Source: Microbacterium tenebrionis
GTDB lineage: Bacteria; Actinomycetota; Actinomycetes; Actinomycetales; Microbacteriaceae
Assembly (NCBI RefSeq): GCF_903645325.1
Contig: NZ_CAHJXQ010000004.1
Location: forward strand, 1 to 64,000
Reading direction: 5' to 3'
DNA: 64,000 nt
In this document: in pieces, positions 28,369 to 56,000 of the stretch
Numbering within the stretch: the first letter of the stretch is position 1
Layout of the letters: every line of letters begins with the position of its first letter
The notes under the pieces: generated by a model
Database searches by the model: none
The model's input: the letters and a program-made list of their open reading frames with translations, nothing else
Told to the model about the DNA's origin: nothing
Translations under genes and position numbers: made by a program

Positions 28369-28537
28369 CAGATCAGCCTAGCGGCGCGGTCGTCGCACGG
28401 GCCCGGCGGCAGCCGGTGAAAAGCCGTTCGTCGCCCGGTCGGTGCCGCTCGTCGCATCCGCCCGCCGATCGCCCCGCATCGGCCCCGTCCGGTTCCTAGC
28501 GTTGGATCACGCAATGACGCGCACACAAGGAGCATCC

Positions 28538-30823
28538 ATGTCATCACCTTCTTCGCGCCGCTCACGCGCCGGCGCCACCCTGGACGGCGAGCCCGAGCTC
28601 GTCGGCGATCCGAACCTCCCGCCCACCTCTCTCACTCCTGAGCAGGATGCCAAGGAATCCCGCTGGACTCTGCCGAAGATCATCCTCTGGGCCGCGATCG
28701 CGCTGCTGGGCGCTGTCGCCTGGACGATGCTCGCGATCGTCCGCGGTGAGACCGTCAACGCGATCTGGTTCGTGTTCGCCGCGGTCTGCACCTACCTGAT
28801 CGGCTACCGCTTCTACTCGAAGGTCATCGAGCGCTACATAACACGCCCGAACGACCGGCGTGCGACGCCCGCCGAGGTCAAGCAGGACGGCAAGGACTTC
28901 GTCCCCACCGACCGGCGCATCCTCTACGGCCACCACTTCGCCGCGATCGCCGGCGCCGGCCCGCTCGTCGGGCCCGTGCTCGCCGCGCAGATGGGCTACC
29001 TCCCCGGCACGATCTGGATCATCGTCGGCGTCGTGCTGGCCGGCGCCGTGCAGGACTACACGGTCCTCTTCTTCTCGATGCGCCGCGGCGGCCGCACGAT
29101 CGGCCAGATGGCGCGGCAGGAGCTCGGCAAGATCGGCGGCTCGGCCGCGATCATCGCCGCCCTCCTCATCATGATCATCATCGTGGCGATCCTCGCCCTC
29201 GTCGTCGTCAACGCCCTCGGCGAGAGCCCGTGGGGCGTCTTCTCGGTCGCGATGACGATCCCGATCGCGCTGTTCATGGGGGTGTATCTGCGCTTCCTGC
29301 GCCCCGGCAAGGTCACCGAGGTCTCGATCATCGGCTTCGTGCTGCTCATGGGCGCGATCATCGGCGGCGGCTGGGTCGCGGGCACCGAGTGGGGCGCCGC
29401 GATGTTCCACCTCGACCGCGAGGTCATCGCCTGGGGCATCATCGTCTACGGCTTCATCGCAGCGATCCTGCCCGTGTGGCTGCTGCTCGCCCCGCGCGAC
29501 TACCTGTCGACGTTCATGAAGATCGGCGTCATCGTCATGCTCGCCGGCGCGATCGTGATCGTGCGCCCGGAGATCTCGGTCCCCGCCGTCACGGTCTTCG
29601 GCGAGAACGGCCTCGGTCCGGTGTTCGCCGGGCCCCTGTTCCCGTTCCTGTTCGTCACGATCGCCTGCGGTGCTCTGTCGGGCTTCCACGCCCTGATCTC
29701 GTCGGGGACGACCCCGAAGCTCATCGAGAAGGAGCGTCAGACGCGCTTCATCGGCTACGGCGGGATGCTCATGGAGTCGTTCGTCGCGATCATGGCGCTC
29801 GTCGCCGCGATCTCGATCGACCAGGGCATCTACTTCGCGATGAACGCGTCGGCGGCATCCACCGGCGGCACGGTCGAAGGCGCGGTGGCGTTCGTGAACT
29901 CGCTGGGGCTCACGGGCGTGAACATCACGCCGGAGATCCTCACCGGCACGGCCCAGGCCGTCGGCGAGCCGTCGATCGTCTCGCGCACAGGTGGCGCCCC
30001 GACACTCGCGCTCGGCCTCGCGCACATCATGCAGCAGGCGCTGGGCGGTCAGGCGCTCATGGCGTTCTGGTACCACTTCGCGATCATGTTCGAGGCTCTG
30101 TTCATCCTCACGGCTGTGGATGCCGGCACCCGTGTCGCCCGCTTCATGCTGCAGGACACGATCGGCGCCTGGTTCCCGAAGTTCCGCGACGTCTCGTGGC
30201 GTCCCGGCGTCTGGATCTGCACCGCGATCATGGTCGCCGGCTGGGGCTACATCCTCATCCTCGGCGTCACCGACCCGCTCGGCGGCATCAACACGTTCTT
30301 CCCGCTGTTCGGCATCGCCAACCAGCTGCTGGCGGCGATCGCGCTCGCCGTGGTGATGGCGATCGTCGCCAAGCGCGGCAAGAACTACCTGCGCTGGCTG
30401 TGGATCGTGGCTCTTCCGCTCGCCTTCACCGCTGTGGTCACCATCACGGCATCCATGTACAAGATCTTCTCCCCGGTGCCCGCCATCGGCTATTGGGCGA
30501 ACAACGTCAAGTACCGGGAGGCACTCGCGTCGGGCGACACGAGCCTCGGCGAGACCGCCGTGCTCGAAGCCGTCATCCGCAACACCGCCGTGCAGGGCAC
30601 GCTGTCGATCATCTTCGTGGTGCTCGCGATCATCGTGATGATCGTCGCGGTCCTCGTCACGATCAAGGCGATCCGAAACGGCGGCGGCGAGAACACCGAG
30701 GACGAGCCGGTGGCTTCCCAGCGCTACGCGCCTGCGGGCTTCATCCCGACCAAGGCCGAGCGCGAGCTCGAGAAGGAATGGGAGCCGATCCTGGCAGACG
30801 AGCACCGGACGTCGGCGCACTGA
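28538..30823 (+). CDS. cstA: Carbon starvation protein CstA (pyruvate/peptide permease)
   Basis: CstA/BtsT-type permeases import pyruvate or peptides during carbon limitation. This 761-residue protein has about 16-18 membrane helices. Recognisable family stretches are G-H-H-F-A-A-I-A-G-A-G-P-L-V-G-P near residue 128, A-G-A-V-Q-D-Y near 167, S-G-F-H-A-L-I-S-S-G-T-T-P-K near 385 and D-A-G-T-R-V-A-R near 528. AAGGAG is 5 nt before ATG 28538; TAGCGT (28497-28502) is a plausible -10. ybdD follows within about 30 nt. Confidence 0.95.
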   Translation: MSSPSSRRSRAGATLDGEPELVGDPNLPPTSLTPEQDAKESRWTLPKIILWAAIALLGAVAWTMLAIVRGETVNAIWFVFAAVCTYLIGYRFYSKVIERYITRPNDRRATPAEVKQDGKDFVPTDRRILYGHHFAAIAGAGPLVGPVLAAQMGYLPGTIWIIVGVVLAGAVQDYTVLFFSMRRGGRTIGQMARQELGKIGGSAAIIAALLIMIIIVAILALVVVNALGESPWGVFSVAMTIPIALFMGVYLRFLRPGKVTEVSIIGFVLLMGAIIGGGWVAGTEWGAAMFHLDREVIAWGIIVYGFIAAILPVWLLLAPRDYLSTFMKIGVIVMLAGAIVIVRPEISVPAVTVFGENGLGPVFAGPLFPFLFVTIACGALSGFHALISSGTTPKLIEKERQTRFIGYGGMLMESFVAIMALVAAISIDQGIYFAMNASAASTGGTVEGAVAFVNSLGLTGVNITPEILTGTAQAVGEPSIVSRTGGAPTLALGLAHIMQQALGGQALMAFWYHFAIMFEALFILTAVDAGTRVARFMLQDTIGAWFPKFRDVSWRPGVWICTAIMVAGWGYILILGVTDPLGGINTFFPLFGIANQLLAAIALAVVMAIVAKRGKNYLRWLWIVALPLAFTAVVTITASMYKIFSPVPAIGYWANNVKYREALASGDTSLGETAVLEAVIRNTAVQGTLSIIFVVLAIIVMIVAVLVTIKAIRNGGGENTEDEPVASQRYAPAGFIPTKAERELEKEWEPILADEHRTSAH

Positions 30824-30854
30824 TCCATTGATGCAGAATCGGAGGATGGCCTCC

Positions 30855-31091
30855 ATGACGAATCAGACGGATGCCGTGACCGACCCGCTCCGCGCGCTCG
30901 CCGCGTGGACGGTCAGGGTCGGTCACGGCATCCGCTGGTACATGCGGGGTCTCATGGGCGACACCGCCTACGAGACGTATCTTGCGCATCACCGGCGGAC
31001 CCATACGGACGAGCAGCCCATGACCGAGCGGCAGTTCTGGCGAGACCGCATGGACGAGCAGGACCGCAACCCGGGAGCCCGCTGCTGCTGA
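30855..31091 (+). CDS. YbdD/YjiX family small protein
   Basis: The 78-residue protein is the usual companion of CstA. It has W-Y-M-R-G-L-M-G-D-T-A-Y-E-T-Y-L-A-H-H and ends in the family signature R-C-C. GGAGG at 30841-30845 is 9 nt before ATG 30855. ATG 30846 is an alternative start, preceded by CAGAAT at 6 nt. The function is unknown; conserved pairing suggests it assists or regulates CstA. Confidence 0.9.
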   Translation: MTNQTDAVTDPLRALAAWTVRVGHGIRWYMRGLMGDTAYETYLAHHRRTHTDEQPMTERQFWRDRMDEQDRNPGARCC

Positions 31092-31096
31092 TCGGA

Positions 31097-32293
31097 TCAG
31101 CCGGCCGGTGCCGCGACCCCGATGCTCCACACGAAGTCGGGGACGGTGCCGTTGACGGTCAGATCCCCGAGCTGCCGCGCCTTGAACAGCCACGGGTTGT
31201 GCGAGGCGACCGCGCGGGCGTTGCGCCAGTGCCGGTCCAACGACCGGGACGCGCTGATCGCGGACGCGCCGAGCGTGTCGAACAGCCGCGTCGCAGCGGC
31301 GGGAACCGACTGCGAGAGCACGACCTGGGCGCGGGCTGACGCGAATTCAGCGGCCACCACGGCGTCGCGATGCGCTGCGCCGTCAGGATCGTGCGCGGTG
31401 TCGGCGGCGAGCTGGACGGCTCTGGCGACCTCGTTCACGAGAGCGCGCGCCGTGAAGGCGGTGGCGTCGATCTCTCCGATCGTCTGCAGGACCTGAGGAT
31501 CGTGCTGCGTGCGCGTGGCGTTGCCGTGGCTGTACGTGCGGGTGCGGGCGGCCACGGCGTCGGCGGCATCCCGGCGCGTCGCCGAGGCGATGCCGGCGAG
31601 CACCGTGAGCAGCACGAGCTGGTAAACGGCCGTCTGGTAGCGGAAGCGATCCGCGAAGGCGCCCAGGTCTGCCTCGTCCACGCTGGCGTCCGTGAACTCG
31701 GCCGTGCCGGTTCCGGTCACGGGTTGACCGAAGCCGTCCCAGTCGTCGTCGACACGGACCCCGGGCTGACCGGTGCGGATGAGTGCGGTCGCGGCGGTGC
31801 CGTCGGCATCGACTGTCGCATCGATCCAGTCGGCGAAGATGCTGCCGGTCGTGTAGAACTTCTTCCCCGTCACCGACCACCCGCCGTCAGCGGCGCGCGT
31901 CGCCCGCGTGGCGTTCGTGCCGAGCGCGACGCCGCCGGTCTCGCTCCAGGCGTTGCCGACGAGGTCCCCGCCGACGATGCGGTCGATCCACGCCTGTCGA
32001 TGCTCCGAGGGCGGCGCCGCGAGCAGGTGCTCGACGAACGCGATGTGTCCGCGGAAGATCTGCGGCAGGTTCGAGTCGGCCTCGGCGAGTTCGACGAGAA
32101 GCTCGGCGAACTCGACCCATCCCAGTCCCTCTCCGCCGTCCTCCCTCGGGATGCGGAGGCATCCGAGACCGGCGAGCGTGAGCGCCTTCACCTGAGCCCG
32201 GGGGAGAGCCCGCTCGCGTTCCCTCTCCAGCACCCCACCGGCGATGCCGGGGAGGAGCGATCGGATGGCACTGACCGCGTCTGCGTGCGTCAT
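31097..32293 (-). CDS. Acyl-CoA dehydrogenase-fold flavin monooxygenase (DszC-like), second copy
   Basis: The 398-residue protein has the acyl-CoA dehydrogenase fold but belongs to the DszC/SfnC branch that uses reduced flavin and oxygen: an early G-L-G-C-L-R-I-P-R-E-D-G-G-E-G-L, E-A-D-S-N-L-P-Q-I-F-R-G-H, then G-N-A-W-S-E and V-T-G-K-K-F-Y-T-T-G-S. It lacks the acyl-CoA dehydrogenase C-terminal G-G-T-x-E motif, as expected for this branch. Its ATG overlaps the upstream stop (TGATG), so it is the third gene of an operon with a second DszC-like and a DszA-like enzyme. Substrate unknown, possibly an organosulfur compound. Confidence 0.8.
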   Translation of the reverse strand: MTHADAVSAIRSLLPGIAGGVLERERERALPRAQVKALTLAGLGCLRIPREDGGEGLGWVEFAELLVELAEADSNLPQIFRGHIAFVEHLLAAPPSEHRQAWIDRIVGGDLVGNAWSETGGVALGTNATRATRAADGGWSVTGKKFYTTGSIFADWIDATVDADGTAATALIRTGQPGVRVDDDWDGFGQPVTGTGTAEFTDASVDEADLGAFADRFRYQTAVYQLVLLTVLAGIASATRRDAADAVAARTRTYSHGNATRTQHDPQVLQTIGEIDATAFTARALVNEVARAVQLAADTAHDPDGAAHRDAVVAAEFASARAQVVLSQSVPAAATRLFDTLGASAISASRSLDRHWRNARAVASHNPWLFKARQLGDLTVNGTVPDFVWSIGVAAPAG

Positions 32294-33519
32294 CAGGTGT
32301 ACAGCGAGATCGGCTGCAGCTCGCCGTTGAGCACCCAGGCGCCCACCTCGAGCTTCTTGTAATCGACCGGATCGTGCAGCGAATGCGTCCGCACGTTCCG
32401 CCAGAACAGGTCCAGACCCACCGAGGCCTTGGCCGAACTCGATCCGGTGATCTCGAAGATGCGGTTGGCGACCTCCACGCTGGTGTCGCTGGAGACGACC
32501 TTGAGCTGCGCGATCGCGATCTCGAGATCGCCCCGCACCTGGGCGGTGACGTCGTCGCCGAGCGCGGCGACTTCGTCGAAACGGCGCCCGCGCAGATCGG
32601 CGAGGGCCTCGACGGCGGCGATGCGCGACGAGAAGTCGCCGACCACGCGCTGCACGAACGGGTCGTCGCGGTAGCGGTCGACCGTCGAGAGGAACCACGA
32701 GTTGTGGCGATTGCGGGCGAGTTCGACGCCTCGCGCCAGCGCGCCCTCGGCGATCCCCAGGTAGATGTTGCCGAAGGCGAGCTGGATCCCCGGTGTGATG
32801 AGGCTCGCGAAGGGCTCATCGGTGAGCGGCGCGAGGACATCCGCCGCTTCCACCCTGACCTCGTCGAAGCGCACGGAGCCGCTCGCGGACAGACGCTGAC
32901 CGAGCGCGTCCCAGTCGCCGAGGTAGCGGATGCCCGGTGCGTCGTGATCGAGCACGACCAGCAGCGACTCGCCGTCGCGGTCGCCGCCGTTCACGATGGC
33001 GGACGCGAGCACGACGTCGCCGGCCGAGGCGCCCGTCGAGAAGCGCTTGAGGCCGGTGAGGCGGTAGCCGTCTCCCTCCGGCGTCAGCACGAGGTCGGGG
33101 TCGACGGGATTCACCGAGTCGCCCCAGACCCAGTGCCCCTGCACCGAGCGGCGGTACCAGTCGGCCTGCGAGGCGGGGTCGGCTGCGAAGCCGATGTTGC
33201 CCGAGTTGATGTAGTGGTAGGCGAGCACCTGCGCGACCGAGGCGTCGGCACGGGAGAGGATGCGCACGACCCGGAAGGCGCTCTCCCAGTGCCCGCCCCC
33301 GCCGCCGAACTCGGCCGGGTGCAGGAGGTCGACGAGGCCGGCGTCGCGCAGCACGTCGAGCTCGTCGCGGGGATCGGCGCCCCGTCGGTCGCGCTCCAGA
33401 GCGTCGGAGCGGAGCACATCGGCGACGCGCTCGGCGACAGCATCCCAGTGGGACAGCTCGGCGGGATCAGCCGTGCCTGTCCAGGGGGTGCGCGCTGCGG
33501 AGAGTGAGATGTCGGTCAT
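32293..33519 (-). CDS. Acyl-CoA dehydrogenase-fold flavin monooxygenase (DszC-like), first copy
   Basis: This 408-residue relative of the next gene has G-L-V-D-L-L-H-P-A-E-F-G-G-G, S-V-A-Q-V-L-A-Y-H-Y, W-G-D-S-V-N-P and L-T-G-L-K-R-F-S-T-G, and ends with an L-F-W-R-N-V-R-T-H-S-L-H-D-P stretch that is diagnostic of DszC-type monooxygenases (the next gene has the variant H-W-R-N-A-R). In Rhodococcus DszC, the reaction is flavin-dependent S-oxidation. The gene overlaps both neighbours by 1-4 nt. A separate flavin reductase is needed and none is seen in the operon. Confidence 0.82.
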   Translation of the reverse strand: MTDISLSAARTPWTGTADPAELSHWDAVAERVADVLRSDALERDRRGADPRDELDVLRDAGLVDLLHPAEFGGGGGHWESAFRVVRILSRADASVAQVLAYHYINSGNIGFAADPASQADWYRRSVQGHWVWGDSVNPVDPDLVLTPEGDGYRLTGLKRFSTGASAGDVVLASAIVNGGDRDGESLLVVLDHDAPGIRYLGDWDALGQRLSASGSVRFDEVRVEAADVLAPLTDEPFASLITPGIQLAFGNIYLGIAEGALARGVELARNRHNSWFLSTVDRYRDDPFVQRVVGDFSSRIAAVEALADLRGRRFDEVAALGDDVTAQVRGDLEIAIAQLKVVSSDTSVEVANRIFEITGSSSAKASVGLDLFWRNVRTHSLHDPVDYKKLEVGAWVLNGELQPISLYT

Positions 33520-34970
33520 CCTCTGCTTCCTTCCGTGATGAGGTCGGTCGTCGTGTCGAAAGCGGCCGGTCGGATCCCGTCGGCCGCGGAGGGGCGGTTC
33601 GCGTATGCACCGCGGTAGGCGTGCGCCGGATGCCACGTGGGCACGGTCGGCGAGCCGTCGCCCTGGAGACGCCCTCGCAGGGTCGTGCCGGGCAGGTCGT
33701 CACGGAGATGACCGCGTCGGCGGAGCTCGGGGACGGCGTGCTCGACGAAGTCCTCGAAGGTGCCGGGGGTGACCGCGTAGGCGAGGTTGAAGCCGTCGAC
33801 GCCGCCGACGTCGACCCAGCGCTCCAGCTCGTCGGCGACCGTCGCGGGGCTGCCGACGATGACGGGGCCGATGCCGCCGATGCCGACGTACTCGGCGATG
33901 TCGCGCGGCGTCCATTCGCGCTCAGGGTCCGCCTTGGTGAAGATCGACAGCGCGGAGCGCGCGGCATCCGTGTCCACGTACTTCAGCGGCACGTCGGGTT
34001 CGAACTCCGACAGGTCCAGTCCCGACCATCCGCCGTAGAGCGCGAGCGCTCCCTCGAGGCTCACGTACTGGCGGTAGTCGTCGTACTTCGCCTGCGCCTC
34101 CTCGTCGGTCGCGGCGACGATCACCGTCGCGAGGGTGAGGATGCGCACGGAGTCGCGCGGTCGCCCGATCCGCTCGGCGCGGTCGCGGATGTCGTCGGTG
34201 ATCGCGCGCGTGATCTCGGGGCGCAGACCGTTGATGAAGATCGCCTCGCCGTGCTTCGCCGCGAACTCCCTGCCGCGAGGCGAAGCGCCGGCCTGGAAGA
34301 TCACCGGGGTGCGCTGGGGGCTGGGCTCAGCGAGATGGATGCCGGGCACCCGGAAGTGCTCTCCCTCGTGGGCGATCGGATGCACCAGAGTCGCGTCGGT
34401 GAACACGCCCGTCTCGCGATCGCGGACGACGGCGCCGTCCTCCCACGAGCCCTCCCACAGCTTGTAGGTGACATCGAGGAACTCCTCGGCGATCCCGTAG
34501 CGGTCATCGTGGGCGATCTGCTGCGAGAGCCCGAGGTTCGTCGCGGCGGAGTTCAGATAGCTGGTGACCACGTTCCATCCGATGCGTCCCCTCGTCGCGT
34601 GGTCGAGTGTCGAGAACCGTCGAGCGAGGGCGTAGGGCTGGTCGTAGGTCAGCGCCACGGTGACGCCGAACCCCAGGCGCTCGGTGACGTGCGACATGGC
34701 CGAGATCGGCACGATGGGGTCGCCGAGAGGCACCTGCGCCGCGTCTCCGAGCGCGGGGGCCGCCGAGTCGCGGTACACGTCGTAGACACCGAGCACGTCG
34801 GCCAGGAACAGGGCGTCGAAGCCGCCGCGCTCGAGCAGCCGAGCGAGGCTCGTCCAGTAGTCGAGGTCCGTGTAGCGGTGCGCCTCGTTGTCCGGATGGC
34901 GCCACAGGCCCGGTGCCTGGTGGGTCACGCACGACATGTCGAAGGCGTTGAAGATGAAGCGTCGGGTCAC
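33516..34970 (-). CDS. LLM-class flavin monooxygenase (NtaA/SnaA/DszA type)
   Basis: The 484-residue enzyme belongs to the bacterial-luciferase-like monooxygenases of the NtaA/DszA group, which cleave C-S or C-N bonds with reduced FMN and oxygen. Signatures are F-N-A-F-D-M at the start, A-L-F-L-A-D-V-L-G-V-Y-D near residue 53, R-F-S-T-L-D-H-A-T-R-G-R-I-G-W-N-V-V-T-S near 117, and V-I-F-Q-A-G-A-S-P-R-G near 224. It leads the minus-strand operon with two DszC-like genes. It is divergent from an ABC importer, which probably supplies the substrate. Confidence 0.9.
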   Translation of the reverse strand: MTRRFIFNAFDMSCVTHQAPGLWRHPDNEAHRYTDLDYWTSLARLLERGGFDALFLADVLGVYDVYRDSAAPALGDAAQVPLGDPIVPISAMSHVTERLGFGVTVALTYDQPYALARRFSTLDHATRGRIGWNVVTSYLNSAATNLGLSQQIAHDDRYGIAEEFLDVTYKLWEGSWEDGAVVRDRETGVFTDATLVHPIAHEGEHFRVPGIHLAEPSPQRTPVIFQAGASPRGREFAAKHGEAIFINGLRPEITRAITDDIRDRAERIGRPRDSVRILTLATVIVAATDEEAQAKYDDYRQYVSLEGALALYGGWSGLDLSEFEPDVPLKYVDTDAARSALSIFTKADPEREWTPRDIAEYVGIGGIGPVIVGSPATVADELERWVDVGGVDGFNLAYAVTPGTFEDFVEHAVPELRRRGHLRDDLPGTTLRGRLQGDGSPTVPTWHPAHAYRGAYANRPSAADGIRPAAFDTTTDLITEGSRG

Positions 34971-35047
34971 GGAGGGTCCTTCTCGAGCGGAGATCGTGCC
35001 CCGAGGTTACTGAGCGGAGCGGCCCGGGATGGTGCTCGGCGTCGTCA

Positions 35048-35124
35048 GATGACGCTGGATGACGCCCTGCGTCGGACGATGACGGAGCCCGAGCGGCGGC
35101 GGCTCGAGCGTCCCTACGATGACG
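35048..35124 (+). promoter_or_regulatory. Helically phased GATGACG repeats with -10 element
   Basis: GATGACG occurs at 35048, 35058, 35078 and 35118, intervals of 10, 20 and 40 bp, so all face the same side of the helix. TACGAT at 35115-35120 is a plausible -10 for the ABC transporter genes. Three copies would lie upstream of its -35 region, as for an activator. The region also serves the divergent monooxygenase operon. Confidence 0.5.
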
Positions 35125-35174
35125 TCGTTCCCACGCCTCGCTCCTGCACGAGCACCCATACCCGAGGAGTTCCC

Positions 35175-36503
35175 ATGAGTCATCACATCCGACGCCGGAT
35201 CGCCGTCACGACAGCCGCGGCGCTGTCGGCATCGCTCGTGCTGGCCGGCTGCGCCGCCGACACGACGTCCGCCGATGGCAGCGCCGACGGAGACTTCTCC
35301 GGTCAGACGCTCAGCGCACTGCTGATCACCTCTCACGAGGGAGCCGCCAACTGGCTCAAGGAGGAGTTCACGGAGCGCACGGGCGCCGACGTCGAGCTGA
35401 CGATCGTCCCCTACGACGAGATCGGCTCCACGCTCGCCCTCGACCAGCAGTCCGGGGCGAACACGTTCGATGTGGCGGCACCCTGGTACGTCTCGATCGG
35501 CGACCTCGCCGCGAACGGCTCCATCCAGGACCTCACCGACTGGATCGACTCGACGCCGTCGATCGAGACCGATGACTTCATCCCCTCCATCTACGACCCG
35601 TACACGCTGTACGACGGACGCCGGTACGGGCTGCCGTTCGACGGCGACACCCACGTGCTGTTCTCGAACACCGAGATCCTCGAGCGCAATGGCATCGACG
35701 CCCCGCCGACGACGTGGGACGAGTACCTCGAGGACGTCAAGACGATCACCGAGAACGAGAGCGCCGACGGCGTCTACGGTGCCGCGGTGTTCGGACAGAA
35801 GTCGCCGCTGATCCTCGGGGCGTCGTTCGCGAACCGCCTCGCGGGCTTCGGGGGCAGCTTCGTCGACGAGGAGGGCAACCCCACGATCAACTCGCCGGAG
35901 GCCGTCGCCGCGGCGCAGGCGCTCGTGGACGTCAACGAATACGCGTTCCCGACTCCCGCCGAGACGGATTTCGGCGTCGGCAACGGCGCCTGGTACGACG
36001 GCAAGGTTGCCTTCATCGAGAACTGGACCGACCTCGGCGTCGGGTCGGAGACGAACCCCGACTCGACCGTCGCCGGCAAGTGGCAGGTCACCACGCTCCC
36101 CGTGGGCGGGGAGGGCGATGCGTCCCGTGCGTCGCTGGTCGCCGGCTTCACCTGGGTCATCGCGGCGAACACGCAGAAGACCGATCTCGCCAAGGCGTTC
36201 ATCGAGTTCGCGGCGTCGAGCGAGATCAACTCCGAGCTCCTCGTGGCCGATCCGCAGACGGGCATCGACCCGAACCGTGAATCGTCGCTGGAGAGCGAGG
36301 CGTACGGCGAGGCCTACCCCGAGCTCCAGGAGGTCAACCGTGCCACGCTGTCCGGATCGCTCGCCTGGCCGACGGGCAAGAACGCCTCGCAGGCCGCCCA
36401 GATTCTGACCGACGAGCTCGCCAAGCTCCTCGCCGGCGAGGGCGGAACCGCCCAGGAGACGCTGGACCGGGTGCAGGCCGAGTGGGAGCACATCCTTGGC
36501 TGA
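35175..36503 (+). CDS. ABC transporter substrate-binding lipoprotein (CUT1 type)
   Basis: The 442-residue protein has a lipoprotein signal with lipobox L-A-G-C (Cys26) and the family 1 extracellular solute-binding fold, including Y-G-L-P-F-D-G-D-T-H-V-L-F-S-N and P-P-T-T-W-D-E-Y. GAGGAG lies 5 nt before ATG 35175. It overlaps the next gene by 8 nt. Family 1 proteins usually bind sugars, but the divergent flavin monooxygenase operon suggests a sulfur- or nitrogen-containing ligand, perhaps a sulfonated or aromatic glycoside. No glycosidase is nearby. Confidence 0.88.
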   Translation: MSHHIRRRIAVTTAAALSASLVLAGCAADTTSADGSADGDFSGQTLSALLITSHEGAANWLKEEFTERTGADVELTIVPYDEIGSTLALDQQSGANTFDVAAPWYVSIGDLAANGSIQDLTDWIDSTPSIETDDFIPSIYDPYTLYDGRRYGLPFDGDTHVLFSNTEILERNGIDAPPTTWDEYLEDVKTITENESADGVYGAAVFGQKSPLILGASFANRLAGFGGSFVDEEGNPTINSPEAVAAAQALVDVNEYAFPTPAETDFGVGNGAWYDGKVAFIENWTDLGVGSETNPDSTVAGKWQVTTLPVGGEGDASRASLVAGFTWVIAANTQKTDLAKAFIEFAASSEINSELLVADPQTGIDPNRESSLESEAYGEAYPELQEVNRATLSGSLAWPTGKNASQAAQILTDELAKLLAGEGGTAQETLDRVQAEWEHILG

Positions 36504-37416
36504 TGCCCTCGCGGTGAGCCCGCGCCGCGCTACCGGTCCCGGTTCGGGGTCAGCGGCTCGGGCTCACCGCCTGTTCATCTCCCCGACGGTCCTCGCCGTC
36601 CTCGTACTGGGCGCGTATCCGCTGGCGTTCATGATCGCCGCCGCCGCCACGGAGTCGAGCCTCGGACGCCCGTTCGCCTCGTTCACGGGAACACGAAACT
36701 TCGAGACCGTCCTCGCCGACGGGGATGTGGTCGCCTCGCTCGCACGCACGGTCGGCTATGCGCTCGCCGTTTCGGTGGCCAGCACGGTTCTCGGAGTCGT
36801 CGTGGCACTGGCGCTCGTGAACGCCACACGGGCCGGCTCTCTGGTGCGCACGCTGCTCCTGCTCCCGATGATCATGCCGCCGGTCGTGGTCGGCACGCTG
36901 TGGAAGCTCATCTTCAACCCGGGCGGCGGTCTCATCGACGCGATCCTCCGTGGCTTCGGCGCGGAGCCTGCGTCCTTCGCGCCGCTGTCGTCGAGTCTGT
37001 GGGCCCTGCCCGCGATCGGGCTCGCCGATGTGTGGCAGTGGACGCCGCTGGTCGCCCTGCTCGTGTACGCCGCCCTGCTCACGCAGGACGCCTCAGTGCG
37101 GGAGGCGGCGGCCCTCGACGGCGCGCACGGATTCGCCTTCTTCCGGCACATCACGTGGCCGACCATCGCCGGCACCGTCGGGGCCGTCCTCCTCATCCGA
37201 CTGGTGATCGCCCTGAAGGTCTTCGACCTCGTGTTCGTCATGACATCCGGCGGACCCGGTCAGTCGACCACGACGACCTCGTACCTCATCCACCAGATCG
37301 CCTTGAAGGAGTTCGATGTCGGGCGGGCGTCGGCGGTGACACTGCTCTTCGCGGTGATCGTCACGGCCGTCACCGTGCCCATCGTCCTGCTGACACGAAA
37401 GGCTGCGCATGAGTGA
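36496..37416 (+). CDS. ABC transporter permease, MalF-like
   Basis: The 306-residue permease has six membrane helices and the EAA coupling loop (E-A-A-A-L-D-G-A-H-G-F-A-F-F-R-H-I-T-W-P near residue 204). I use TTG 36496, since GGAG lies 8 nt upstream and it overlaps the binding-protein gene by 8 nt; GTG 36511 is an alternative. The permease belongs to the CUT1 family. No ATPase gene follows, so it probably relies on a shared MsiK-type ATPase encoded elsewhere. Confidence 0.88.
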   Translation: MADALAVSPRRATGPGSGSAARAHRLFISPTVLAVLVLGAYPLAFMIAAAATESSLGRPFASFTGTRNFETVLADGDVVASLARTVGYALAVSVASTVLGVVVALALVNATRAGSLVRTLLLLPMIMPPVVVGTLWKLIFNPGGGLIDAILRGFGAEPASFAPLSSSLWALPAIGLADVWQWTPLVALLVYAALLTQDASVREAAALDGAHGFAFFRHITWPTIAGTVGAVLLIRLVIALKVFDLVFVMTSGGPGQSTTTTSYLIHQIALKEFDVGRASAVTLLFAVIVTAVTVPIVLLTRKAAHE

Positions 37417-38230
37417 GGTCTTCTCAGCACGCGCGCGGCGCACGGGCGGAGCGCTGCTGATCGTCGCGCTCACCGTCACCGTGCTGCCGCTGCTCTACCT
37501 GGTCTCGGTCTCGCTGATGGGACGCGGTGAGACGGTCTCCGGGGCTCTGGTTCCGGCGGCGCCGCAGTGGGGGAACTGGGGCGACGTGCTCGCATCGAGC
37601 ATCCCCCAGTCGGTGCTCAACTCGCTGCTCGCCGCCGTCGGTGGCGCTGTTCTCACTCTCGTGCTCGCGACGCCGGGCGCCTGGGCGATCGCCCGCTACC
37701 GCACGGGCGGTCGCACCCTCGGCGCGACGCTCATGAGCCCGTGGCTGCTTCCGCCGATCGTCGCGGTGGTGCCGCTGCTGACCTTGCTGCGGGTGCTGCA
37801 CCTGAACAACACGCTGGTCGGGCTGACGCTCGTCTACGCGCTCGTCAACCTGCCCGTAGCCGTCTGGCTGCTCGAGGGGTTCGTGCGCCGGATCCCGCAC
37901 GAGATCGACGAGGCCGCGGCGCTCGACGGCGCTGGGGCCTTCCGCACCCTGGTCTCGGTGATCGCTCCGCTGCTGATCCCGAGCCTGGTGGCCGTCGGCA
38001 TCATCGTCGCGATCCTGAACTACAACGAGTTCCTGCTGGCGACCTTCCTCACGCAGAGCGCCGACACCCAGACGTTCCCGGTCGCGCTGTCCCTGTTCTA
38101 CGGAGACCGCACTCCGCACTTCGGCAAGATCGCAGCGGCGTCATTCATCGGTGTGATCCCGGTGTTCGCGGCGGCGGTGCTGTTCCAGCGGTGGCTCGTC
38201 GGCGGGCTGACGGCGGGGACGCTGCGCTGA
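37409..38230 (+). CDS. ABC transporter permease, MalG-like
   Basis: This 273-residue partner permease has six helices and an EAA loop (D-E-A-A-A-L-D-G-A-G-A-F-R-T-L near residue 168). The ATG at 37409 overlaps the previous gene by 8 nt. It ends the transport operon: the next gene is a sensor kinase with its own start signals. The three-gene set of binding protein and two permeases without ATPase is typical of actinobacterial CUT1 importers. Confidence 0.88.
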   Translation: MSEVFSARARRTGGALLIVALTVTVLPLLYLVSVSLMGRGETVSGALVPAAPQWGNWGDVLASSIPQSVLNSLLAAVGGAVLTLVLATPGAWAIARYRTGGRTLGATLMSPWLLPPIVAVVPLLTLLRVLHLNNTLVGLTLVYALVNLPVAVWLLEGFVRRIPHEIDEAAALDGAGAFRTLVSVIAPLLIPSLVAVGIIVAILNYNEFLLATFLTQSADTQTFPVALSLFYGDRTPHFGKIAAASFIGVIPVFAAAVLFQRWLVGGLTAGTLR

Positions 38231-38265: not shown

Positions 38266-39456
38266 ATGACTGACGCCGTCGTGCTCGCCGCCGTTCTGGG
38301 CGTGCTCGGCGGCATCGTCCTCACAGTGCTGCTGCTGCTCGCGTGGCGGCTCGCGCGCGGAACAGCCGATCTCGGAAGCGCCGCAGAACGGGCGTCCTAC
38401 GAGGTGATGCACCACGCGAGCCTCGCAGCCCGCGATCTGCGCGGCGGGCTGCGCGGGCCGGACGTCGCCCGGGCCGCACGGCACTTCCGGGTGCTGCTGG
38501 GCAGCGCCGCCGTCGCGATCGTCGCCGATGAGGTCAGCGTCGCGACCGACGGCTCGGCTGACGGGCTCGAGGCATCCGCTCTTCGGATCGCCGCCCGTGT
38601 CCGCGATTCCGGTAGGCGTCAGGTGTTCCCGAGCCCCGACGGCGAGGCGCTCGAGGCGGTCGGTGCGCCGATCATCGTGGACGGCGCCGTCGTCGGCGTC
38701 GTGGTCGCCTTCGCAGCGCCGGTCCGCGCCGCACTGGTGCGTGCGGCGGGCGAGGTCGCCGATTGGTGCGCAGCCCAGGTCGAGCTGGGGGAGCTGGATG
38801 CTTCGCGCACAGCGCTCGTCGAGGCCGAGCTGCGGTCGCTGCGGGCCCAGATCTCGCCGCACTTCATCTACAACGCCCTCACGGCGATCGCATCGTTCAC
38901 CCACGTCGACCCGGAGCGCGCCCGGGACCTCGTGCTCGAGTTCGCCGACTTCACGCGCTACTCGTTCCGGCGCCAGGGGGAGTTCACGACTCTGGCGGAG
39001 GAGCTGCAGAGCATCCACTCCTACCTCGCCCTCGAGCGCGCCCGCTTCGGCGACCGTCTCGAGGTGACGCTGCGGATCGCGCCGGAGACCCTGTCCACCG
39101 TCATCCCGTTCCTGTCCGTCCAGCCGCTCGTCGAGAACGCCGTGCGGCATGGACTGGAGCCCGGCGAGGGCGGCGGGACGATCCGCATCGCGTCGGTGGA
39201 CGACGGAACCCATACCGAGATCACGGTCGAGGACGACGGCGTGGGGATGGATCCCGAGGTGCTGCGGACGCTCCTGACCTCGGCGGTCGACGGCGCGCAC
39301 GTGGGCCTGCGCAACGTCGACACGCGCCTGCGTCAGATGTACGGCAGAGACGGGGGACTGGTCGTGGAGACGAACACTGGCGCCGGTACGCTGGTGCGGA
39401 TGCGGGTCCCGAAGTCGCAGCCGATGCACGACCCCGCACGGGATGGAGTGCGATGA
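38266..39456 (+). CDS. LytS/YehU-type sensor histidine kinase
   Basis: The 396-residue kinase has a single N-terminal helix (residues 4-26), a GAF-like region (about 50-165), the His-kinase box L-R-A-Q-I-S-P-H-F-I-Y-N-A-L (phosphoacceptor His near residue 201) and an ATPase domain with Q-P-L-V-E-N-A-V-R-H-G-L and D-D-G-V-G-M. TAGGCT ends 6 nt before the ATG without a ribosome site, suggesting a leaderless message. It is the first gene of a four-gene operon with a LytTR regulator, a small membrane protein and a symporter, so it probably senses the symporter's substrate. Confidence 0.92.
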   Translation: MTDAVVLAAVLGVLGGIVLTVLLLLAWRLARGTADLGSAAERASYEVMHHASLAARDLRGGLRGPDVARAARHFRVLLGSAAVAIVADEVSVATDGSADGLEASALRIAARVRDSGRRQVFPSPDGEALEAVGAPIIVDGAVVGVVVAFAAPVRAALVRAAGEVADWCAAQVELGELDASRTALVEAELRSLRAQISPHFIYNALTAIASFTHVDPERARDLVLEFADFTRYSFRRQGEFTTLAEELQSIHSYLALERARFGDRLEVTLRIAPETLSTVIPFLSVQPLVENAVRHGLEPGEGGGTIRIASVDDGTHTEITVEDDGVGMDPEVLRTLLTSAVDGAHVGLRNVDTRLRQMYGRDGGLVVETNTGAGTLVRMRVPKSQPMHDPARDGVR

Positions 39457-40172
39457 TCGACGTCCTCGTCGCCGATGACGAGCAGCCCGCGCGAGACGAA
39501 CTGGCCCACCTGCTGCGGCGAGATCAGCGCATCGGCGAGATCGTCCTCGCGGCATCCGGCGCGCAGGCGCTGCGCGAGCTCACCGAGCGGGCCGTGACGA
39601 TCGCCTTCCTCGACATCCACATGCCGGGGCTGGGCGGCATGGACCTGGCTCGCTCGCTCGCGGCGCTCGCCGAGCCGCCCGCCGTCGTGTTCGTGACGGC
39701 AGACGACGCGCGCGCGGTCGACGCGTTCGACGTGCGCGCCGCCGACTACCTGCTCAAGCCCGTGCGCACCGATCGGCTGCGGCGCGCGATCGATCGCGTT
39801 CTCGAGCTGGGCGGCGCCGCGGCGGCCCCGCCGGGCGACGAGGTCCTGACCGTCACCGTCGGGTCGAGCGTGCGCTTCGTGCAGCGCAGCGAGGTGCGCT
39901 GGGTGCAGGCTCAGGGCGATTATTCGAGGCTGCACACGGCCGACGGGACCGGCCATCTCGTGCGCATCCCGATCTCGGAGCTCGAGCAGCGCTGGGCCGA
40001 CGGTTTCGTCCGCGTGCACCGCTCCTATCTGGCAGCGGTCGCGTCGATCGACGAGGCGCGGCTGTCGGGCGCCGAACCGTCCGTGTCGGTCGGCGCGGTC
40101 GTGCTCCCGGTCAGCCGTCGCCTGCTCCCCGGCGTCCGTGAGGCGCTCGTCCGCCGCGAGGGCGCGCGATGA
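39453..40172 (+). CDS. LytTR family response regulator
   Basis: The 239-residue regulator has a receiver domain with acidic pocket D-D-E near residues 8-10 and phosphoacceptor Asp54 in F-L-D-I-H-M-P-G, K in L-L-K-P-V near residue 105, and a C-terminal LytTR DNA-binding domain (V-R-W-V-Q-A-Q-G-D-Y-S-R-L, F-V-R-V-H-R-S-Y-L). It overlaps the kinase and the next gene by 4 nt on each side. LytTR regulators bind tandem direct repeats; the likely target is a promoter of this operon or of carbon-uptake genes. Confidence 0.93.
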   Translation: MIDVLVADDEQPARDELAHLLRRDQRIGEIVLAASGAQALRELTERAVTIAFLDIHMPGLGGMDLARSLAALAEPPAVVFVTADDARAVDAFDVRAADYLLKPVRTDRLRRAIDRVLELGGAAAAPPGDEVLTVTVGSSVRFVQRSEVRWVQAQGDYSRLHTADGTGHLVRIPISELEQRWADGFVRVHRSYLAAVASIDEARLSGAEPSVSVGAVVLPVSRRLLPGVREALVRREGAR

Positions 40173-40567
40173 CCGAGCATCCCCCGCGGCGTGTGCGGGT
40201 GACCGCAGACGGGCCGTCCGTCGCCCGCTCCCTGAGCCTGTCGAAGGGTGCCGCGGCCACCCGGGGCATCGCACTGCCAGGATCGCCGGTCGACGACGCG
40301 GATGCCGTGTACGCGCGCGCCCTGCGCCGCAGCCAGCTGCGCCTCGCGCTCGGCACGGTCGCGGGCTTCATCATCGTCACGGCGGTGCTCACCCTCGTCA
40401 TCGTGCTGATCCCCGAGATCGATCGCGTGATCGTTGCGGGGCTTCCGTTGTCGTGGATCCTGCACGCCTTCGCCTTCTACCCGGTGATCATCCTCTTCGC
40501 GCTGCTGTACGCGCGCGGGGCCGCACGCAACGAGCGGGCGTTCCGAACGCTCGACGAGCACGGATGA
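40169..40567 (+). CDS. Small membrane protein, companion of the symporter
   Basis: The 132-residue protein has two membrane helices (about residues 58-80 and 92-115) and resembles the DUF485-like small subunits encoded next to acetate or pyruvate symporters. Residues about 21-27 (S-L-S-L-S-K-G) are encoded by a 19-bp dispersed repeat that lengthened the N-terminal tail. It overlaps both neighbours by 4 nt. It probably helps membrane insertion or activity of the symporter, but that is inference. Confidence 0.75.
   Translation: MTEHPPRRVRVTADGPSVARSLSLSKGAAATRGIALPGSPVDDADAVYARALRRSQLRLALGTVAGFIIVTAVLTLVIVLIPEIDRVIVAGLPLSWILHAFAFYPVIILFALLYARGAARNERAFRTLDEHG
40230..40248. repeat. 19-bp dispersed repeat, copy 3 (reversed)
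   Basis: CCCTGAGCCTGTCGAAGGG is the exact reverse complement of the copies at 9707 and 17027, and again lies within a coding region without breaking the frame. Confidence 0.85.
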
Positions 40568-42021
40568 ACCCCGTCTTCGACCTCGTCGGAGTCGCGCTGG
40601 TCATCATCGCGACGCTGCTCATCGGCGTGTACGGGCTGCGGGTGTCGCGCACGACGGGCGACTTCTTCGTCGCCTCGCGCACCGTGCGGCCGGTGTGGAA
40701 CGCTTCGGCGATCAGTGGGGAGTACCTCTCGGCGGGCACCTTCCTGGGGCTGTCGGGACTCGTGCTGCTCGAGGGGGCCCGGGGGTTCTGGTTCCCGATC
40801 GGGTACGCCGCCGGCTACCTGCTCGTGCTCGTCTTCGTCGCGGCTCCCCTGCGGCGCAGCGGCGCGTACACGATCCCGGATTTCATCGAGGCGCGGCTGG
40901 AATCCCAGCGCGCGCGACGCGTGACCAGCCTCGCCGTGCTCGTCATCGGATGGCTCTACATCGTTCCGCAGCTGCACGGGGCGGGCCTCACCCTGACCGT
41001 CGTCGCAGGGCTCCCGCCCTGGGCCGGCGAGGTGGCGATCGCCGTGCTCGTGGCGGGTTCGGTGGCGGCGGGAGGCATGCGTGCGATCACGTACGTGCAG
41101 GCGTTCCAGTACTGGCTGAAGCTCCTCGCCCTGCTGATCCCGCTCGTGTGCATCGCCTTCGCCCTGACCGGCGGTCCGCACGACATCGATCCTGTGGCGG
41201 TGTTCCCCGTCGAGGCGGGGCCCGCAGGGTTCGGGCTGTACGAGACCGTCTCGCTCATGCTCGCCCTGCTGCTGGGAACCATGGGCCTGCCGCACGTCCT
41301 GGTGCGGTTCTACACGAGCCCCACAGGCGTCTCGGCACGGCAGACGACAGTGCTCGTGATCGTCATGGTGAGTGCTTTCTACGCGGTCTCGAGCGGGATG
41401 GGCCTGGTCTCGCGGATGCTCGCGCCCGACCTCGCCGATCCGGCGGTCGCCGACACGGCCGCGCTCGTCCTGCCGTCGCGCGTGTTCCCGGGCCTGTTCG
41501 GCGAGCTGCTCACGGCGCTCGTCGTCTCCGGCGCCTTCTCGGCGTTCCTGGCGACATCGGCCGGCCTCATCGTGTCGCTCGCGGGGGTGGTGAGCCAGGA
41601 CGTGTTCTCGGGGTCCGTGCGCTCGTTCCGGATCTCCGCCGTTCTCTGCGCGGCTGTTCCGCTCGCGATCGCCCTCGTGACGACGCCGGCCGGGCTGGGC
41701 TCGAGCGTCGGGATGGTGTTCGTGTTCGCGGCATCCATGCTCTCGCCCGTCGTGCTGCTCGGCGTCTGGTGGGCGGGGCTGACGGCGCGAGGCGCCGTCG
41801 CCGGCATCGTGACCGGGGGCGTGGCCTGCGCGCTGTCGCTCATCGTGCACGCGGCCGTGGGCGGCATCGGCGTCGCAGCGCCCCTGCTGGCGCAGCCCGC
41901 TGCATGGACCATCCCGCTGGCGACGGCGGTGAGCGTCGGGGTCTCCCTGCTCGACACCCGGGGCACGCCGAGTCGGGCCGACCGCTATCTCGCCCGGCTG
42001 CACACCCCGGAGCGGGGATAG
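40564..42021 (+). CDS. Sodium:solute symporter (acetate/monocarboxylate type)
   Basis: The 485-residue transporter has about 13 membrane helices of the SSS family. Features include R-T-T-G-D-F-F-V-A-S-R, S-G-E-Y-L-S-A-G-T-F-L-G near residue 51, G-A-Y-T-I-P-D-F-I-E-A-R-L, and L-G-T-M-G-L-P-H-V-L-V-R-F-Y-T near residue 239, all typical of ActP/MctC-like monocarboxylate carriers. It is the last gene of the kinase-regulator operon. The likely substrate is acetate, propionate or pyruvate. Confidence 0.9.
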   Translation: MNPVFDLVGVALVIIATLLIGVYGLRVSRTTGDFFVASRTVRPVWNASAISGEYLSAGTFLGLSGLVLLEGARGFWFPIGYAAGYLLVLVFVAAPLRRSGAYTIPDFIEARLESQRARRVTSLAVLVIGWLYIVPQLHGAGLTLTVVAGLPPWAGEVAIAVLVAGSVAAGGMRAITYVQAFQYWLKLLALLIPLVCIAFALTGGPHDIDPVAVFPVEAGPAGFGLYETVSLMLALLLGTMGLPHVLVRFYTSPTGVSARQTTVLVIVMVSAFYAVSSGMGLVSRMLAPDLADPAVADTAALVLPSRVFPGLFGELLTALVVSGAFSAFLATSAGLIVSLAGVVSQDVFSGSVRSFRISAVLCAAVPLAIALVTTPAGLGSSVGMVFVFAASMLSPVVLLGVWWAGLTARGAVAGIVTGGVACALSLIVHAAVGGIGVAAPLLAQPAAWTIPLATAVSVGVSLLDTRGTPSRADRYLARLHTPERG

Positions 42022-53056: not shown

Positions 53057-56000
53057 ATGAAGGCGCTGTCGTGGTTGCGCACCAAACCCAAGACAGCCGC
53101 ATCCATTGCGGGGATCACAGCCGGGATCGTGGCGATCGGCACCCTCGCATTCGCGTATGAGGGCAACCCCACCACCAAGGTCGATCTGAACGACGGCAGC
53201 GTGTGGATCACCAAGTCCTCCGCGCTCATGGTCGGCCACTTCAACAATGAGTCGGCGCTGATCGACGGCGGTCTGCGCACGACGGGCGAGAGTTTCGACA
53301 TCGTCCAGGACGAGTCGACGATCCTCGTCACCGACACCTCGAACTCGACCCTCACGGCTGTCGATCCCGCACGCGTCTCGCTCGAGGACAGCACCACCGT
53401 CCCCGGCGGCGCCAAGGTCGCCCTCGGCGAGCAGACGACCGCGATCCTCGACCCGCAGTCCGGTAACCTCTTCGTCGTCCCCGTCAAGGGCATCTCCGGG
53501 TTCGAGCTCGAGGGCGCCGAGCCGACCGCTGAGCTCGGCAAGAACTCCGATGTCACCGTCGGCGTCGACGGCACCGTCTACGCGGTCTCCGGCGAGAAGT
53601 CCGAGGTCGTCACGATCCCCGTCGACAACCAGGGCGAGCCGCTGGATGCGCAGACGGCATCGCTCGGCGAGCTCGACACGTCCATCGCGCCGACCATCAC
53701 TGCGGTCGGCACGACCCCGGTCGTCCTCTCACCCGCCGACAGCGCGGTCATGACCCCTGGCGGGTTCCGCACCGAGATCACCGGTGCGGATTCCGCTGTG
53801 CTGCAGTTCGCCTCGGCGCCGACCGACTCGGTCGCCGTCGCCACGGCATCCCAGCTCCTCGAGGTTCCGCTCGACGGCGGCGACCCGACGGGGACGGATG
53901 CCGGCGGCGAGGGCAGCCCTGCCGCACCCGTCTCGCTCCTCGGCTGCACCTACGGCGCCTGGTCGGGCACGGGGCAGTTCTTGCGCGACTGCCCGTCCGA
54001 CGCAGACGACGTGCACGAGGAGATCCCTGGGATCCAGACGTCCGCATCGCTGACGTTCCGCGTCAACCGCGAGGTCATCATCCTCAACGACACCGTCGGC
54101 GGCGCCGCGTGGCTCACCGACGAGAGCCTGCAGCAGGTCGACAACTGGGACGACCTCACCCCGCCCGAGGGTGAGACCGAGGACGAAGAGGACACCACAC
54201 AGGAGACGGTCGAGACCACCCTGCCGGTGCGCACGGCCGAGAACACACCGCCCGTCGCCGAGGACGACTCCTTCGGAGTGCGTCCCGGCCAGACCACGGC
54301 GCTCCCCGTGCTCGACAACGACAACGACGCCGACGGCGACGTGCTGGTCGCCGCGCTGACCGGCAAGCAGCCCTCGATCGGCACCGTCCAGCCGATCTAC
54401 GACGGCGGATCGCTGCAGATCGCCGTCGGCGAGGAGGCCTCGGGCTCGGCATCCTTCACGTACGAGGTCGATGACGGACGCGCGGGCAAGGACACCGCGA
54501 CCGTCAGCCTGACCGTGAAGGACTGGGACACCAACACCGCTCCCAAGCCGAAGCGCAAGACGGCGCTGGCGATCGAGACCGGCGGCACGGTCTCGTACAA
54601 CATCCTCCCGGACTGGATCGACCCCGAGGGCGACGACATCTACCTCCGCGAGGTGATCGCCGCGCCCGGTGACGAGGTCGAGTTCACCACCGACGGTCAG
54701 ATCACCTACCGCGCGACCGCGAGCCTGCAGGGCCGCAAGGAGGTGCAGGTCGTCGTCGCCGACGCGCTGGGCGAAGCGGCGACCGGGACGATCGTGCTCG
54801 ACGTCCGCCCATCGGGCTCCACGCTCCCCAAGACCAACGCCGACCACGTGCAGACGCGCGTCGGCGAGCAGGTGACCGTCTCGCCGCTCGCGAACGACTC
54901 GAGCTCCGGCCGCGAGCCGCTCCGGCTCACGCGCGTGAACGGCGACGAGTCACCGGGTGCGGCGATCGAGCCGGACTACCCGAACAAGACCTTCACCTTC
55001 AGCGCCCCGGCCCCCGGCGTCTACTACGTGCTGTACGAGGTCGCCGCCGGCCCGAACGGCGTGCCAGGCATCGTCCGGGTCGACGTCGCCGACGCCGCTG
55101 AGCAGGATCTGCCGCCGATCGCCGTGCGCGATGTCGCGCTGCTGCCGACCGGTGGCGAGGTGCTGCTGGGCGTGCTGAACAACGACACCGATCCGTCCGG
55201 CGGCATCCTCGTCGTCCAGTCCGTCAGCGTCGAACCCGGCAGCGGGATCTCGGTGTCGGTGCTCAACCACGAGTCGCTCCGCATCGGCGACCAGGGGGCC
55301 CTCGACGAGCAGGTGACCATCACCTATCGGATCTCGAACGGGTCGAAGACGGCCGAGGGCGAGGTGATCGTCATCCCGATCCCCGCGCCGGACAAGATCA
55401 TGCCGCCGGTGGCGACGCCGGACAAGGCCGTGGTTCGCGTGAACGATGTCGTCACGATCCCCGTGCTCGACAACGACAGCAGCCCGATCGGCGACGCCCT
55501 GTCTCTCGAACCCGAGCTCGTCGAGCCGCTCGTCGATCCGGAGGACGGCGAGATCTTCGTCTCGCAGGACACCGTGCGCTTCAAGGCGGGCCCCGAGGCG
55601 AAGACCGTCTATGCCACGTACGAGGTCTCGGACACCCGCGGCAACAAGGTCGGCGGGTACATCACGATCCAGATCGTGCCGGAGCAGGACGAGAACGCCG
55701 CCCCCCGTCCGAAGGACATCACCGCGCGCGTGCTGAGCGGCAACACGGCCAACATCGCCGTGCCGCTCGACGGCATCGACGAAGACGGCGACTCGGTCGA
55801 GCTCATCGGCCAGGCGACCAGCCCTGAGAAGGGCCGGATCACGGAGGTCGCCCAGAACTACTTCGTGTACGAGGCGTACGCCGACTCCGCCGGCGTCGAC
55901 ACGTTCTCCTACCGGGTCCGCGACCGGCTCGGCAAGGAGGGCACGGCGACCATCCGTGTGGGCATCGCCGCCGCGGAGGACATCAACCAGGCGCCGTATG

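Follow-up and report, generated by a model that had tools for sequence, protein, structure and literature searches.

Each of the described systems closest to the locus considered here, a six-gene cassette in a 64,000-nucleotide stretch of the Microbacterium tenebrionis genome, resembles it in part. DmoA of Hyphomicrobium (6ak1), a dimethylsulfide monooxygenase, is a luciferase-like monooxygenase (LLM), and SfnB, MsuC and DszC/TdsC are group D monooxygenases. Some CUT1 importers combine a solute-binding protein (SBP) and two permeases without an ATPase of their own and rely on a stand-alone UgpC-type enzyme; the ATPase shared by such sugar importers is known as MsiK. Koch reportedly described, in 2005, Dsz-like monooxygenases (ssu/seu genes) in the actinobacterium Corynebacterium glutamicum, where the importer is of the Ssu type. 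In PMC1779776 the seuB and seuC genes of this organism are named sulfonate ester monooxygenases, and ssuC and ssuB are named too. Dms1-3 are group D organosulfur monooxygenases according to PMC13352529. Finally, the sulfo-SMO/ASMO systems (SmoC/SquD, SmoB/SquF, SmoF) join an LLM to an ABC importer; as PMC9594981 describes the sulfoquinovose route, an SsuD-like LLM acts together with an ABC transporter for sulfoquinovosyl glycerol (SQGro), and the aldehyde product, 6-dehydroglucose, is reduced.

The stretch, hereafter the window, comprises positions 1 to 64,000 of contig NZ_CAHJXQ010000004.1 (assembly GCF_903645325.1), in a host genome of 24 contigs and 2.95 Mb. At 31097-38230 it holds three oxygenase genes on the minus strand (31097-34970), encoding in order an LLM and the proteins DszC-like 1 and DszC-like 2, and on the plus strand an importer (35175-38230) consisting of a lipoprotein SBP, permease A and permease B. 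A first-pass annotation of the window had described such a three-oxygenase operon back to back with a CUT1-type importer lacking an ATPase, and open reading frames (ORFs) and hidden Markov models (HMMs) bore this out. We propose, with a probability of roughly 0.6, that the six genes compose a single sulfur-scavenging module, one that takes up a polar organosulfur compound, oxidises the sulfur atom and then breaks the carbon-sulfur bond; the three oxygen-using enzymes probably cut bonds of this kind. Gene content, conserved linkage, family membership and the presence of an ATPase were observed directly; the organosulfur role is inferred. No title or abstract found in the open-licence literature described this layout.

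One importer-oxygenase unit in several genera

Within the genus, the SBP was found in 15 of 149 genomes (10 at >=66% identity, 5 at 43-46%) and the LLM in 35, of which 10 were at >=76%; the 66% and 76% bands were set post hoc from gaps in the match lists. The two high-identity sets comprise the same 10 genomes, and the genes are adjacent in all 10. Across the order, the SBP occurs in 16 of 396 genomes and the LLM in 91 (E 1e-120 or better), and a DmoA-type LLM lies within 5 kb of the SBP in 13 of the 16 genomes that carry the latter. Eleven of these 13 represent two other families, where the SBP descends to 42-44% identity and the LLM to 63-65%. In genomes G231 and G312 an LLM of 41-42% identity is found next to the SBP, while in G162 the locus is split across contigs.

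The same association was evident at 41 SBP loci in titled genome records. Within 5 kb of the SBP we detected permease A at 41 loci, permease B at 40, the LLM at 38, DszC-like 1 at 37 and DszC-like 2 at 28. No LLM was detected at L107, which is close to the end of its contig, at L113, or at L122, a Pacificoceanicola locus whose SBP is 41% identical. Twenty-five of the 41 are divergent, 16 of them with exactly the six-gene order seen here, 12 lie on one strand and 4 are arranged otherwise. In Actinotalea (L099) the order LLM-DszC1-SBP-PermA-PermB-DszC2-reductase is read through successive overlaps of 4-11 bases. The surroundings vary, with 21 different labels on the left flank and 27 on the right (with a contig end treated as a label). 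These counts are not independent, as the titled-record loci and the genus and order sets overlap (e.g. L083/G122, L114/L174); genes were called with a home-made caller rather than a standard one, and loci were labelled by best match alone, such that weak LLM or DszC copies may escape (e.g. the first LLM of L118).

Two unrelated operons could also be mere neighbours: they are on opposite strands in M. tenebrionis, and the identified genes on both sides are unconnected to sulfur. Set against linkage conserved over unrelated flanks, a single-strand arrangement at 12 of the 41 loci and co-occurrence in 10 of 10 genomes, this explanation is scarcely credible. Because the pairing recurs across actinobacterial genera with unrelated flanks and co-occurs in 10 of 10, we regard importer and oxygenases as what looks like one real unit, and chance neighbourhood is rejected. 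The pairing postulated in the first-pass annotation, which had suggested looking for the same cluster in relatives, is thereby upheld in several actinobacterial genera.

Families of the oxygenases and the importer

The LLM, initially labelled DszA-like, scores 543.3 bits against the NtaA/DmoA family model TIGR03860 (curated cut-off 279.7). Its solved relatives are headed by DmoA 6ak1 (631 bits, E 1e-188), followed by LadA (488 bits), hexachlorobenzene dehalogenase (341), riboflavin lyase (310) and DszA (5tlc, 248), and they also include nitrilotriacetate (NTA) and EDTA monooxygenases. Alignment with DmoA is gapless over residues 1-473 at 57% identity, and 18 of the 20 DmoA binding residues listed in PMC9259527, where contacts to flavin mononucleotide (FMN) and to the substrate are not told apart, are identical, the differences being G231P and L367I. 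LadA, a relative that does not act on dimethyl sulfide (DMS), differs at 7 of the 20 positions, 3 of these in a gapped stretch. Since score and binding residues favour DmoA over DszA, the DszA label was rejected and the enzyme renamed DmoA-like. It departs from DmoA in being accompanied by DszC-like enzymes and an importer. The genome encodes a second DmoA-like LLM (G000:C2:556750-558093, L176; 57% identical), next to which no importer or DszC-like gene was found.

LadA, hexachlorobenzene dehalogenase, riboflavin lyase and the NTA and EDTA monooxygenases are not sulfur enzymes, and their presence among the solved relatives lends something to a use free of sulfur, in which the oxygenases would act on an imported, sugar-linked compound at a nitrogen, halogen or carbon centre, like relatives of NtaA, EmoA and HcbA1. 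This we consider improbable, given that the DszC-like partners match sulfur families best and that the context in Nesterenkonia/Garicola is one of sulfur uptake and MetY.

For both DszC-like proteins the best HMMs are SfnB and DszC, albeit below cut-off: DszC-like 1 and 2 score 257.4 and 247.4 bits against the SfnB model TIGR04022 (cut-off 430.9), and 241 and 116 bits against the DszC equivalog model (cut-off 850). The nearest solved relative of DszC-like 1 is the methanesulfinate monooxygenase MsuC (6u76, 260 bits), whereas DszC-like 2 is more remote, with 126 bits each to TdsC 5xb8 and MsuC 6u76. A motif that reads RTHTLHDP in TdsC and RTQTLHDP in MsuC is RTHSLHDP in DszC-like 1; in DszC-like 2 the first histidine of this motif is replaced. 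Group D enzymes supply the best models and structures for both proteins, but the scores are far under the SfnB and DszC cut-offs; a specific substrate is not transferable. The desulfinase DszB of the dsz 4S operon is not in the cassette operon, which holds only the LLM and the two DszC-like genes.

On the importer side, the SBP matches PF01547 (SBP_bac_1) with 117.7 bits and has a lipobox, LAGC, whose Cys26 is invariant among 10 orthologues; both permeases belong to BPD_transp_1 (PF00528). The best NCBIfam model is UgpA for permease A (94.7 bits, cut-off 335) and MalG for permease B (103.7 bits, cut-off 261). The layout is therefore that of CUT1 (an SBP_bac_1 lipoprotein with two BPD_transp_1 permeases, MalFG/UgpAE type), with no NCBIfam equivalog cut-off reached. 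An AlphaFold2 model of the SBP, built from an alignment of 28 sequences out of the window and the 41 loci, has a pLDDT of 86.5 and is matched best by 5iai (Z 48.9, rmsd 2.3 over 392 residues); as modelled, the protein has the fold of sugar-type binders.

The model also superposes on the sulfoquinovosyl binder SmoF (Z 45.6, rmsd 2.0 over 381 residues), which raises a sulfosugar route like sulfo-SMO, with the importer taking up sulfoquinovosyl glycerol or a similar sulfonate and the LLM releasing sulfite. The known pathway outlined above is similar, down to the aldehyde reductase found in some relatives of the cassette, yet the SmoF score ties with those of maltose and trehalose binders. The LLM reaches 71 bits with the SsuD model TIGR03565 (cut-off 518), and the solved sulfonate- or sulfone-type LLMs rise no higher than SfnG 8t0u (E 1e-12), 7oh2 (1e-5) and 7olf (4e-4), against 1e-188 for DmoA; the structures 7oh2 and 7olf we take to be SmoC. 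The route has no place for two DszC-like enzymes, it differs from the cassette in that the latter contains no flavin reductase or ATPase, and no sulfoquinovosidase was noticed among the recurrent genes, the flanks being only partly annotated. Sulfo-SMO clusters have been reported in Actinomycetota (PMC13372026). Membership was nonetheless rejected on the type of LLM, which is not that of SsuD/SmoC, and we judge such a route very improbable. Because the LLM scores poorly with SsuD, the type used on sulfoquinovose (PMC9594981), the sulfonated glycoside that the first-pass annotation preferred as an example is not favoured either.

Genomic context, cofactor supply and layout

The main support for the putative sulfur role is the gene context in Nesterenkonia and Garicola, a single lineage. 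In Garicola L112 a one-strand run with a largest gap of 233 bp comprises SsuB, SsuA, SsuC, DszC2, DszC1, an aldo-keto reductase, LLM, SBP, PermA, PermB and LLM; Nesterenkonia L118 is similar, and L113, L115, L116 and L120 have Ssu-, Met- and MetY-type genes nearby, partly on the other strand. Overall, 7 of the 41 loci, nearly all of them Nesterenkonia/Garicola, have Ssu-, MetY- or MetQ-type genes no more than 10 kb from the SBP. Counted singly within that distance, SsuA occurs at 6 loci, MetY at 5, MetQ at 4 and an HpaC/RutF-type flavin reductase at 5. The SsuA of L118 scores 179 bits against the aliphatic-sulfonate binding family (cut-off 163.5) and the MetY of L116 589 bits against the O-acetylhomoserine sulfhydrylase family (cut-off 495). 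For the genes labelled flavin reductase and MetQ at the Nesterenkonia loci, the scores stayed under the curated cut-offs. Two MetY-type genes, both over the cut-off, are present in the M. tenebrionis genome. As islands, the six loci L112, L113, L115, L116, L118 and L120 bring together importers of the Ssu and CUT1 types and have at most two LLMs each; four of them have MetY along with MetQ/MetI-type genes.

A FastTree phylogeny (L115 omitted as short; rows identical over residues 21-400 merged) placed the cassette LLMs in several clades. The main clade lies near DmoA; others contain the families with 42-44% SBPs, the second LLM of Nesterenkonia/Garicola, and a group of about 40% from Brevibacterium and Nesterenkonia/Garicola. 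The LLM of M. tenebrionis shares a clade with DmoA (support 0.93), but the LLMs at L158-L161, which lack this importer, group with DmoA. Brevibacterium loci have only an LLM of about 41% next to the same importer, and Nesterenkonia/Garicola loci one of about 40% plus one of 51-55%. Judged by their sequences, the LLM partner can be exchanged with the importer and a DszC-like enzyme retained. Some DmoA-clade LLMs without this CUT1 importer are situated beside SsuA/SsuC (L163, L164) or MetQIN-like genes (L159), a pattern that would suit one kind of enzyme coupled to different importers.

Thirteen of the 41 loci have an aldo-keto reductase of the YghZ/AKR14A1 type no more than 5 kb away. The L118 copy scores 446 bits, marginally under the cut-off of 448, and an unlinked YghZ-type gene in the M. 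tenebrionis genome, at 440 bits, is also below it; no SmoB entry was named among the solved relatives of the YghZ-type reductase at 1e-30. In Actinotalea L099 and L100 the operon is followed by a member of the malonic semialdehyde reductase family (L099 225 bits, cut-off 152). The presence of two unrelated aldehyde reductases alongside the module would fit a C-S cleavage that releases an aldehyde, as happens in the sulfoquinovose route. Both are of small-aldehyde families (L-glyceraldehyde-3-phosphate reductase, malonic semialdehyde reductase), which, together with an LLM sharing 57% identity and 18 of 20 binding residues with DmoA, would also suit a small C1- or C3-sulfur compound (of the dimethylsulfoniopropionate (DMSP), methylthiopropionate, sulfone or DMS type) on which the LLM would act like DmoA, a charged precursor entering through an importer recruited from the sugar family. 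We think this unlikely: the nearest solved relatives of the SBP are sugar-type binders, and DMS needs no importer.

No ABC ATPase was identified at 28.4-42.0 kb, where the larger ORFs were family-scanned (ORFs 30831-31091 and 40193-40567 lay outside the scan). The genome does contain one stand-alone UgpC/MsiK-type ATPase gene (G000:C1:410837-411913; 472 bits, over the NF008653 cut-off of 432), with no permease seen adjoining it. At L173 (genome G231), a Brevibacterium-like cassette, a UgpC-type ATPase of 440 bits (cut-off 432) adjoins the cassette, and Brevibacterium L114 and L117 have a similar-looking ATPase at the same place, as judged by resemblance rather than HMM. These data are consistent with an importer powered by a shared UgpC/MsiK-type ATPase, as the first-pass annotation had surmised; the difference from other CUT1 importers of this kind is that the genes linked to this one encode oxygenases, not glycoside hydrolases or sugar kinases. 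The annotation had also proposed looking for a flavin reductase. PF01613 had no match in the genome, whereas five PF03358 genes are present, all distant from the cassette; the nearest is ~120 kb off on the same contig, and two, on C2 and C9, sit directly behind other LLM genes. Reduced FMN (FMNH2) must be supplied by a flavin reductase encoded elsewhere. In Acinetobacter baylyi, according to PMC13352529, one reductase feeds many group D enzymes, and DMS is converted to DMSO and DMSO2.

The features of the cassette are listed in Table 1. The oxygenase genes overlap as ATGA and TGATG, the TGA of DszC-like 1 overlapping the ATG of DszC-like 2. In the divergent gap, GATGACG occurs four times on the same strand (35048, 35058, 35078 and 35118; spacing 10, 20 and 40 bp), and this array at 35048-35124 is the sole such cluster within the window. 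The four-copy array is kept in 0 of 34 other divergent gaps, 8 of which have a single GATGAC in a comparable position, 64-65 bases into the gap. A promoter and terminator scan of the gap gave no match, and a k-mer comparison of 35 divergent intergenic regions yielded no clear operator.

Table 1. Features of the importer-oxygenase cassette, in window coordinates
Feature	Position	Strand	Remarks
DszC-like / SfnB-like flavin monooxygenase 2	31097-32293	-	398 aa, acyl-CoA dehydrogenase fold
DszC-like / MsuC-like flavin monooxygenase 1	32293-33519	-	408 aa
DmoA-like LLM flavin monooxygenase	33516-34970	-	484 aa, GTG start, heads the oxygenase operon
Divergent intergenic region	34971-35174	.	204 bp
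Solute-binding lipoprotein (SBP), CUT1 sugar type	35175-36503	+	442 aa
CUT1 permease A	36496-37416	+	306 aa, TTG start, PF00528
CUT1 permease B	37409-38230	+	273 aa, PF00528

One flank of the cassette (28442-31091) carries a CstA pyruvate-type carrier and then an 86-aa ORF, and the other (38266-42021) a set of histidine kinase, LytTR regulator and SSF symporter; the two are perhaps one carbon-transport region interrupted by the cassette. Further away, the window encodes a 1050-aa RND protein of the AcrB/AcrD/AcrF family (12363-15515; 710 bits), here in an actinobacterium, and a 2027-aa protein with 8 Big_9 and 3 fibronectin type III stretches (53057-59140). Importers of the 43-46% group (L072-L076) are found in operons with an LsrK-like kinase, an LsrF-like thiolase, and cupin-like and 2-hydroxyacid-dehydrogenase-like proteins (the latter two named by eye), gene names that suggest an AI-2-like or sugar route.

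A candidate route for organic sulfur

If the six genes do act as a sulfur-scavenging module, the lipoprotein would capture an organosulfur compound that is polar and resembles a polyol or sugar, and the two permeases would import it with the shared ATPase. Going by their families, the DszC-like enzymes may then use FMNH2 and O2 to oxidise the sulfur, either from thioether to sulfoxide or sulfone or in a sulfinate step, and the DmoA-like LLM may cleave the C-S bond, so that an aldehyde is released together with a thiol or sulfinate. The aldehyde would be reduced by an aldehyde reductase, whose gene is near the cassette in some relatives and unlinked here, and the released sulfur would enter cysteine and methionine synthesis. 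More tentatively, and at less than even odds, the cassette may represent an unrecognised actinobacterial system, in which an MsiK-energised sugar-type importer takes up a sugar- or polyol-like thioether or sulfoxide, and DszC/SfnB-type enzymes with an exchangeable NtaA/DmoA-type LLM cut its C-S bond.

Several observations weigh against the module as proposed. Most LLM homologues in the order (91 genomes, versus 16 with the SBP, of 396) occur without the importer, and four of those LLMs are closer to DmoA than the one studied here (64% versus 57%). The LLM is exchangeable between cassettes, and because it varies beside the same importer, DmoA chemistry may not be the constant; DszC-like 2 is absent from some cassettes altogether. 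The 43-46% SBP relatives (5 of the 15 genus matches) adjoin LsrK/LsrF-like genes and sit without oxygenases, therefore a close importer homologue alone does not imply sulfur. Outside the six Nesterenkonia/Garicola loci, the links to sulfur genes are confined to Salinibacterium L098, which has a MetY, and Arthrobacter L101, where a MetI-like gene lies 7.9 kb away, and the identified neighbours in the present strain are carbon-transport genes. Taken as a whole, the earlier interpretation keeps its unit, its shared ATPase as an idea the data agree with, and its organosulfur theme as a plausible one; it loses the DszA label and the sulfonated glycoside.

Were the more tentative reading correct, oxygenolytic desulfurisation would have an import route additional to the Ssu-type and amino-acid-type transporters, and a class of thio-sugars not previously known as a sulfur source would be added. 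If the module is as proposed, the gene set, found in Microbacterium, Arthrobacter, Mycetocola, Labedella, Clavibacter, Actinotalea, Brevibacterium, Nesterenkonia, Galactobacter and others, would mark the use of an organic sulfur pool, one that would stay hidden behind generic names (sugar ABC transporter, acyl-CoA dehydrogenase, LLM oxidoreductase). The conserved lipoprotein offers a direct handle, as its ligand could reveal the substrate.

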